The position numbers and the translations under genes were made by a program. A DNA stretch of 64,000 bases from Fimbriimonadales bacterium (GTDB lineage: Bacteria; Armatimonadota; Fimbriimonadia; Fimbriimonadales; GBS-DC): assembly GCA_025998675.1 (NCBI GenBank), contig AP024673.1, positions 1,205,221 through 1,269,220 of the forward strand, read 5' to 3'. Below the pieces are notes generated by a model, which saw only the letters and a list, made by a program, of their open reading frames with translations, searched no databases and was not told where the DNA came from. Positions within the stretch are counted from its first letter, which is position 1, and every line of letters begins with the position of its first letter. Shown here one piece after another: positions 1,436 through 3,001 of this stretch.

Positions 1436-2647
1436 TTAGCCCAGTTGAAACGACACCAGCGCATTCTGAAAGTGTCGCTGTGCGCCTTTGAGGACGGCGT
1501 CCAGCACATCGTTTGTTTGCAATGCTTTCAGCACGGGGTCGGCTTGCGGCGGTTCCAGCGTGTAGCTGCTCCCCTGAATTTGTATCTGGCGGGGCTTGGG
1601 GGCATTCATCACCAGAATCAGCGCGCCGTATCGACCGTCCTGCAGTGCGATGGGCTTCAGTATCACGGGCGACGCCATGCGCCCACTCTCCGCAGGCTCC
1701 ACGCTGCCCACGAAGCAGAGATTCCTTGCCCCCTTAATATCCTGATAGATGATGGGCAGTCCCAGAAAGGGTTTTGCAAGACGCACTTTGCCCTGTTGCT
1801 CGCTTAAACGACACAGCACCTGTCGGTAGTCTGCCCATTTGCTCCCCGACATCGGGCTGTAGTTCTGGGGAAAGTGCCCCTTGCGAAAGCGCGCCCAGAA
1901 GCGTCCCAGTTCGCACCAGGCATGTTCTGCATCGCGCTTGATCACAATCATCCCTCGCGCGTCTGCCAGCGTCGCCCACCGGGGCGGGCTTGCCGCGCCT
2001 CTTGGAACAGGCAACCACTGGGCGAGGTTCTGTGTCGGCGGCAACCACTGGCTGGCGTTCTGCCCAACGACAGTCAGCGCGCCGCAGCCGCGCCGCGTTC
2101 GCGCGCCGACGCCTCCAAACGCTATCCACGCCTTCAGCGCGGTGCGCACTCCCGATCTCTGTGCATCGCTCAGGTCAGGGTGAAGCGTTAGCGTCAGGCG
2201 GAAGGAGACATCCTTACGCCCCGTCGCGGCGGGTTTCCCCTGTTGCGGCTGAAACGGGAAGAGAAAGTAGCCATGCTGAGGTCCCACTTTGGGATTCGCT
2301 TTCGGAGCGATGTCGCTGTAGGGAACCGGCTGACCGGAATCGAGAATCTCCACCCGTATCGCTACCTTCCCCGCGGCGCTGCGCTCGCTGGTAGACGCGC
2401 CGCCCCAGAGGTCGGTCTCAGCCATGTAGAGTTCGTCAACGCTTGCGTAGCGCGCGCCGGCGGTCGCCCGCCACCAGAAGCGCAGATGCCCCCGAATCGC
2501 CGCCGATCGGATGGGCAGCAGGGGGTCTATCTGACCTGTTGCGTAGCCCCCGCCGAACATCGGCGTAATCAGCCGCAGCTCCAGCGTGAGTGTCTCCCCC
2601 TTCGCTGGCTCCTGCCACTCAGGAGCGGGGATATTCACCTTCCGCAT
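1436..2647 (-). CDS. cmr1: Type III-B CRISPR RAMP protein Cmr1
   Basis: A RAMP-fold subunit that caps the Cmr backbone near the 3' end of the crRNA. The 403-residue protein begins with the diagnostic Cmr1 pattern: LELRLITPMFGGG at about residues 20-32, then IRSAAIRGHLRFWWRA at about 47-62, followed by a LWGG segment. A later Gly-rich stretch, GGVGARTRRGCG, matches the family's RAMP loop. The ATG at 2647 follows a GGGAGG site. It is the first gene of the operon, with cmr2 next. No cas6, cas1 or cas2 is in the window, so crRNA processing and adaptation must be encoded elsewhere or supplied by another system. Confidence 0.93.
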   Translation of the reverse strand: MRKVNIPAPEWQEPAKGETLTLELRLITPMFGGGYATGQIDPLLPIRSAAIRGHLRFWWRATAGARYASVDELYMAETDLWGGASTSERSAAGKVAIRVEILDSGQPVPYSDIAPKANPKVGPQHGYFLFPFQPQQGKPAATGRKDVSFRLTLTLHPDLSDAQRSGVRTALKAWIAFGGVGARTRRGCGALTVVGQNASQWLPPTQNLAQWLPVPRGAASPPRWATLADARGMIVIKRDAEHAWCELGRFWARFRKGHFPQNYSPMSGSKWADYRQVLCRLSEQQGKVRLAKPFLGLPIIYQDIKGARNLCFVGSVEPAESGRMASPVILKPIALQDGRYGALILVMNAPKPRQIQIQGSSYTLEPPQADPVLKALQTNDVLDAVLKGAQRHFQNALVSFQLG

Positions 2648-2706
2648 CGCAACCTCCCTGCGAATATGTTCTTGTTGCCATCAGCGACTCCTGCTGGTTT
2701 CTGATG

Positions 2707-2749: not shown

Positions 2750-2938
2750 TTACCAGTCAAAGTCGTAGTTCGGCTCGTTAATCTCGTCCCATGCGTCGAC
2801 CTCTTCGTAGTGCTCCCACTCGCCGTCGTGGTACACATAGTCCCACTCCCGCTCGGCGAGGATATCCCGCCACTCCGCGAGGGGGTCGAAGAGGTCGTCG
2901 ACAGGCTCCACCTGGGGGTCCTCATGCCAGTCCCACAT
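2750..2938 (-). CDS. Highly acidic, Trp-rich 62-residue protein of unknown function
   Basis: Not a family I recognise. It starts MWDWHEDPQVEP and ends NEPNYDFDW. Of 62 residues, 23 are Asp or Glu and 7 are Trp; there is no Lys and only two Arg, so the predicted pI is very low. No signal peptide or membrane segment is visible. The gene is well supported. A strong AAGGAGGTGA ribosome site precedes the ATG at 2938, a consensus promoter lies about 30 nt further up, and a Rho-independent terminator follows. It sits directly upstream of the cmr operon on the same strand. The composition resembles DNA-mimic or charge-decoy proteins, but that is only an inference. Confidence 0.8.
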   Translation of the reverse strand: MWDWHEDPQVEPVDDLFDPLAEWRDILAEREWDYVYHDGEWEHYEEVDAWDEINEPNYDFDW

Positions 2939-2971
2939 CCAGCTCACCTCCTTCTGTAGAGTAGTGAGTAT

Positions 2972-3001
2972 ATTATAGCACATAGTGCTATGCGTTGTCA
3001 A
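2972..3001 (-). promoter_or_regulatory. Consensus sigma70 promoter with palindromic operator
   Basis: On the minus strand, TTGACA (3001-2996) and TATAAT (2977-2972) are both perfect and are separated by 18 nt. A perfect inverted repeat TAGCAC-ATA-GTGCTA (2976-2990) fills the spacer and overlaps the -10 box, where a repressor would block RNA polymerase. The promoter drives the small acidic gene. It is the best-matching promoter I saw in the window. Confidence 0.85.

Follow-up and report, generated by a model that had tools for sequence, protein, structure and literature searches.

The window analysed here is a 64,000-nt stretch of a Fimbriimonadales (Armatimonadota) genome that is assembled as a single contig of 2.99 Mb. 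Close to its start, the minus strand carries the cmr1 gene of a type III-B CRISPR locus, which opens a cmr1-2-3-4-5-6 operon running past the start of the window. The genes for Cmr2, Cmr3, Cmr4, Cmr5 and Cmr6 follow cmr1, the Cmr3 match being full length and below the curated cut-off. Upstream of cmr1 lies a small gene with its own expression signals. The features of this region, in the direction of transcription, are as follows.

2972–3001, minus strand: sigma-70 promoter TTGACA-N18-TATAAT with extended -10 TGTGC, matching the consensus at 12 of 12 positions
2975–2991, no strand: 17-bp perfect dyad covering part of the spacer and the -10, found in this genome only
2944–2952, minus strand: Shine-Dalgarno sequence AGGAGGTGA, a strong anti-SD match
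2750–2938, minus strand: ORF of an acidic, Trp/Tyr-rich microprotein of 62 aa, from ATG to TAA
2716–2737, minus strand: intrinsic terminator hairpin GGCGGAGTCGCGACGCTCCGCC with an 8-bp stem and a T-run
2686–2694, minus strand: GCAGGAGTC element, about 50 nt before cmr1
1436–2647, minus strand: cmr1 (NCBIfam TIGR01894)

The initial annotation of this DNA had described a complete small unit, in which a 62-residue protein with 23 Asp/Glu, 7 Trp and no Lys is driven by a perfect TTGACA-N18-TATAAT promoter and followed by its own terminator before cmr1. This description holds in each respect. The ORF encodes MWDWHEDPQVEPVDDLFDPLAEWRDILAEREWDYVYHDGEWEHYEEVDAWDEINEPNYDFDW, followed by TAA, with exactly that composition, a mass of ~7.9 kDa and a net charge of about -20. 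The promoter, the Shine-Dalgarno sequence, the ORF and the terminator are all present, and the promoter and the hairpin are kept in the six copies of the gene described below.

Distribution of the gene and its linkage to cmr

Protein and profile searches detected six copies of the microprotein gene in five of the 13 genomes of one genus and no copy among the 100 further genomes from the order and class, so that none of the 113 genomes covered carries it outside the genus. A scan of GTDB returned matches in the same genus only (Armatimonadetes bacterium HOT.MAX.079 and an uncultured Fimbriimonadales MAG). Five of the copies (G000, G008, G010:C100, G006 and G007) are located directly upstream of cmr1. 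In one chromosomal context (G000 and G008), the gene upstream of the microprotein gene encodes a 3-methyladenine glycosylase; in another (G010 and G007), it encodes an N-methyltryptophan-oxidase-like FAD enzyme, while on the short G006 contig the upstream sequence looks like the tail of an FAD oxidase gene.

The sixth copy (G010:C24) is found upstream of a Csx1/Csm6-like CARF-HEPN gene, and the last codons of cmr6 (LRFTPVE and stop) are present between the two (L006 1195–1218). This remnant aligns with the sequence in G011 and G009 where cmr6 meets csx1, which indicates that cmr genes were deleted from a locus with the order microprotein gene, cmr1-6 and csx1. An independent association of the second G010 copy with csx1 was therefore rejected. 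Each of the six copies stands at the 5' border of a cmr locus or of what a deletion left of one.

Within the order, the gene is present in 5 of 13 cmr1-positive genomes vs 0 of 100 genomes without a detected cmr1 (hypergeometric P of 9e-6 for the order and 0.016 for the genus alone, values that are uncorrected for shared descent and include some incomplete genomes). G009 is an example of incompleteness, with csx1 behind the end of cmr6 in an assembly that lacks cmr1, and the contig of G011 starts just before cmr1, so the presence of the gene there cannot be judged. In this sample of six copies from one genus, with genome-wide counts taken from searches of genome sequences, the gene recurs beside type III effector genes more often than expected by chance. 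The initial annotation had proposed following the homologues to see whether they stay with cmr genes; they do, and widespread CRISPR-free homologues were not found in these searches. The microprotein is nevertheless dispensable for a cmr locus, since G001 has cmr1 and lacks the gene. G015 and G017, from other genera, carry different genes at the position before cmr1, and together with G001 they argue that Cmr does not need the microprotein.

No match to the protein was found in Pfam, NCBIfam, PHROGs or PADLOC up to E = 1 or in PDB up to E = 10, in agreement with the initial view that it belongs to no recognisable family. IMG/VR and phage and plasmid records contained no relatives, and a phage, plasmid or viral origin was rejected on this basis. 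A literature search for small acidic proteins in connection with type III-B systems returned nothing relevant. As far as these searches reach, with the lists in surveys of type III accessory genes outside the comparison, the gene represents a small family of type III-B accessory genes that has not been described before; it is of a kind already known, the cmr-linked accessory gene.

Coding status and predicted product

The reading frame, whose conservation had been proposed as a check on the gene, is open in all six copies, with no internal stops and with alignment gaps of whole codons. Both alternative frames contain stops, third codon positions are the most variable, and the synonymous share of differing codons is 18.7% in the microprotein frame vs 9.9% and 13.6% in the other two. 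A spurious ORF was rejected because the frame is conserved across copies and, judged by these comparisons, the gene is protein-coding. Estimates by NG86 (dN 0.35–0.71, dS 0.59–1.39 and dN/dS about 0.34–1.06) suggest a fast-changing protein under weak purifying selection, with dN/dS mildly below 1.

In the same genomes, pairwise identity is 33–60% for the microprotein vs 58–70% for Cmr1. Despite this divergence, the charge is kept at -18 to -22 in all six copies, with 20–24 Asp/Glu and no Lys. The invariant residues W32, Y34, G39, E40 and W41 fall in a core W-x-Y-x-Y-x-(D/E)-G-E-W, and five of the six copies have F/Y-D-W-stop at the C-terminus, G007 ending in FDG. Two AlphaFold2 runs agree in outline, with one short helix and with a hairpin that covers the core, at a pLDDT of only 50–54, too weak to reveal a mimic surface. 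This low-confidence model makes probable a short helix and a beta-hairpin, rich in Trp and Tyr, that turns at D/E-G-E-W.

Repeats were also observed at other copies of the gene. In G008:C45 (L005 13687–13746), an exact 30-bp in-frame tandem duplication includes the ribosome-binding site and the start of the microprotein ORF, and a 43-bp tandem repeat (CGGCAGGAATGCCGTCGCACCACTTGCATAAGTTCCAGGGCGA) lies at the contig end near the gene in G010:C100 (L007 1–215).

Promoter, palindrome and terminator

The promoter is the only sigma-70-like site within the first 6 kb of the window, and its hexamers are kept in all six copies as TTGAC(A/T)-N18/19-TATAAT. A strict scan for TTGAC(A/T)-N16-19-TATAAT in 253 kb of DNA from the genus yielded seven sites, six of which are the promoters of the microprotein gene; the seventh shares the TGTGCTATAAT extended -10 and lies before the gene of an apparently secreted, unrelated protein. 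The strong Shine-Dalgarno sequence is common to four of the six copies. These features support the view of a cmr-linked protein that is strongly expressed, as predicted from its promoter and ribosome-binding site.

The promoter also contains a perfect palindrome, TAGCAC-ATA-GTGCTA (2976–2990), with arms that extend to 7 bp, which the initial annotation took for an operator of a tightly regulated unit. The palindrome is real and, without mismatch, occurs once in the 3.0-Mb genome, but the meaning given to it did not stand. The sister species has TAGTGCTATGTGCTA and no palindrome, and the four other copies lack it as well. Its right arm, GTGCTAT, is the ordinary extended -10 (TGTGCTATAAT) of strong promoters in the genus, and when the hexamers were fixed and the spacer was shuffled, arms of at least 7 bp arose in 2.7% of shuffles. 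For these reasons, tight regulation is unsupported, a conserved operator was rejected, and the palindrome is taken as a product of chance, with probably no conserved operator at this site. It is thus highly improbable that the 15-bp palindrome is a true operator, bound by a dedicated repressor and allowing the unit to be switched on during infection, even given a perfect dyad over the spacer and -10 that is unique in the genome. A smaller dyad (ATAG-N2-CTAT or ATAC-N-GTAT) is readable at the same place in several copies and is too weak to claim.

The stem and loop of the terminator are kept in all six copies, with the loop TCG(C/A)GACG, and no other site in the genome resembles the hairpin with fewer than three mismatches. 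It lies 12 nt past the stop codon in G000 and G008 and 9 nt past it in the other copies. In one copy, both bases of one pair are changed, and another pair varies through G-U; a shuffling control of the pairing was not significant, since most pairs never vary. Conservation is higher in the hairpin and its loop than in the ORF, so a role at the RNA level would fit too. Rfam gave no match anywhere in the window. A CRISPR-repeat-like Cas6 site was considered for the hairpin and rejected, as the array repeat beside cas1 (GTAGCATTCACCCCCAAGGGTGGGTGCTAATTGAAAC) is unlike it.

Between the terminator and cmr1, the sequence scan found no consensus promoter. A GCAGGA-type element like that at 2686–2694 is also found before cmr1 in relatives, whether they carry the microprotein gene or, like G001, lack it; it might serve type III genes of the genus as a common start signal. 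Other sites of the GCAGGA(A/G)T(C/T) type are L005 13450, L007 1657, L014 2207, a site upstream of cmr1 in L023 and L053 4861. The element is also found before a csx1 gene in G008, and GGAAT-N16-TACTTA is readable in three cases.

Possible roles beside the cmr operon

Comparison of the copies shows an accessory gene that belongs to a type III-B CRISPR locus, codes for a protein, changes rapidly and is restricted to one genus. For its role, the explanation that we prefer, tentatively and with somewhat less than even confidence, is that of a strongly expressed acidic cmr accessory that would dock on Cmr or a Csx1-type effector and temper its activity. The gene would form its own unit, probably strongly expressed from a consensus housekeeping promoter with a strong ribosome-binding site, and the terminator would separate it from cmr1. 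The product, a presumably abundant polyanion, might dock on a basic surface with which the Cmr complex, or alternatively a Csx1-type effector that Cmr activates, binds nucleic acids, and such docking could temper or gate activity in the uninfected cell. The linkage, the coding status, the kept charge, the invariant core, the promoter kept in six copies and the Shine-Dalgarno sequence kept in four were counted in favour of a cmr accessory. Weighing on the other side are the weak models, a dN/dS that is only mildly below 1, the cmr loci of G001 and of other genera that lack the gene, the small sample from a single genus, and a hairpin and loop that are more conserved than the ORF. That the protein is a host-encoded, constitutively abundant acidic brake built into its own type III-B complex or effector, a self-restraint module that in one genus evolves rapidly together with the Cmr proteins, is a more doubtful proposition.

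Known systems offer partial parallels. Like the type III CRISPR-Cas accessory genes catalogued in published surveys of gene neighbourhoods (Csx1/Csm6 and ring nucleases among others), the microprotein gene has a strict cmr neighbourhood, a patchy presence and no necessity for the core complex; it differs from them in its tiny size, its acidity and its own promoter and terminator, and it lacks a CARF, HEPN, ring-nuclease or membrane signature and any PADLOC or NCBIfam match. Acidic inhibitors that mimic nucleic acids include Ocr-type proteins and some anti-CRISPRs. The microprotein shares with them a small size, a charge of about -20, the absence of lysine and a location adjoining a nucleic-acid-targeting system, and its strong acidity is conserved while its sequence is not, as would be expected of a mimic. 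Unlike these inhibitors, it has no family match, comes from a host gene that adjoins the host's own cmr genes, and was not found in phages. Leader-peptide attenuators of the trp/tna type also combine a short ORF with a Trp before the stop, a terminator directly after it and a downstream operon; the microprotein gene departs from them in its longer ORF, its conserved internal motif and the selection on its frame.

This last resemblance raises an alternative in which the promoter would be that of cmr and translation of the small ORF would decide whether transcription reads through the terminator into cmr1. The terminator 9–12 nt after the stop codon, with its unusually conserved stem and loop, the F/Y-D-W-stop end of five of the six copies and the lack of a second consensus promoter before cmr1 in the scan would all suit such a leader. 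Conservation, however, is strongest in the central core rather than at the C-terminal end, which in G007 is FDG, and 60–64 codons are long for a leader. Moreover, the GCAGGA-type element, present with and without the microprotein gene, hints at a start signal belonging to cmr itself, which is mildly against attenuation. We consider this alternative unlikely.

It is quite unlikely that the gene has an unrelated job and was carried with the cmr island by common descent, as might be suspected from a dN/dS that is not low and from copies that all come from one genus, in only two or three independent flanking contexts. A gene with a general job would be expected to have at least one copy away from cmr; none was found in the 100 cmr1-negative genomes of the order, and the gene is kept intact while its flanks change. 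The aromatic-rich conserved hairpin would suit a protein interface, and the constant position in front of the cmr operon, together with the strong expression signals, could indicate that the protein is an assembly factor for the Cmr complex or Cas10, or an additional small subunit of either, made in stoichiometric amounts and serving stability, not inhibition. Against this stand the separate transcription unit with its own terminator, the cmr loci of G001 and other genera that manage without the protein, and its faster evolution relative to Cmr1. This alternative, too, is quite unlikely.

Type III systems make toxic signals and need restraint in healthy cells, and we know of little on restraint other than by ring nucleases. 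A cmr-linked small protein family without relatives would be a candidate for type III control or for a new Cmr cofactor. Should it be only a leader or a hitchhiker, the locus would still show a cmr operon insulated by a strong upstream unit.

Other type III-related loci were observed in these genomes. In G000, two TIGR02221 Csx1-like genes lie far from the cmr operon (G000:C1 1768599–1769138 and 2481917–2482636; L051 and L052), unlike in G009 and G011, where a Csx1-like gene directly follows cmr6. A CRISPR array with the repeat GTAGCATTCACCCCCAAGGGTGGGTGCTAATTGAAAC is present beside a Cas1c-like gene (L060 17743 to L061 about 660, at G000:C1 about 739742–741660), about 0.47 Mb from the cmr operon.
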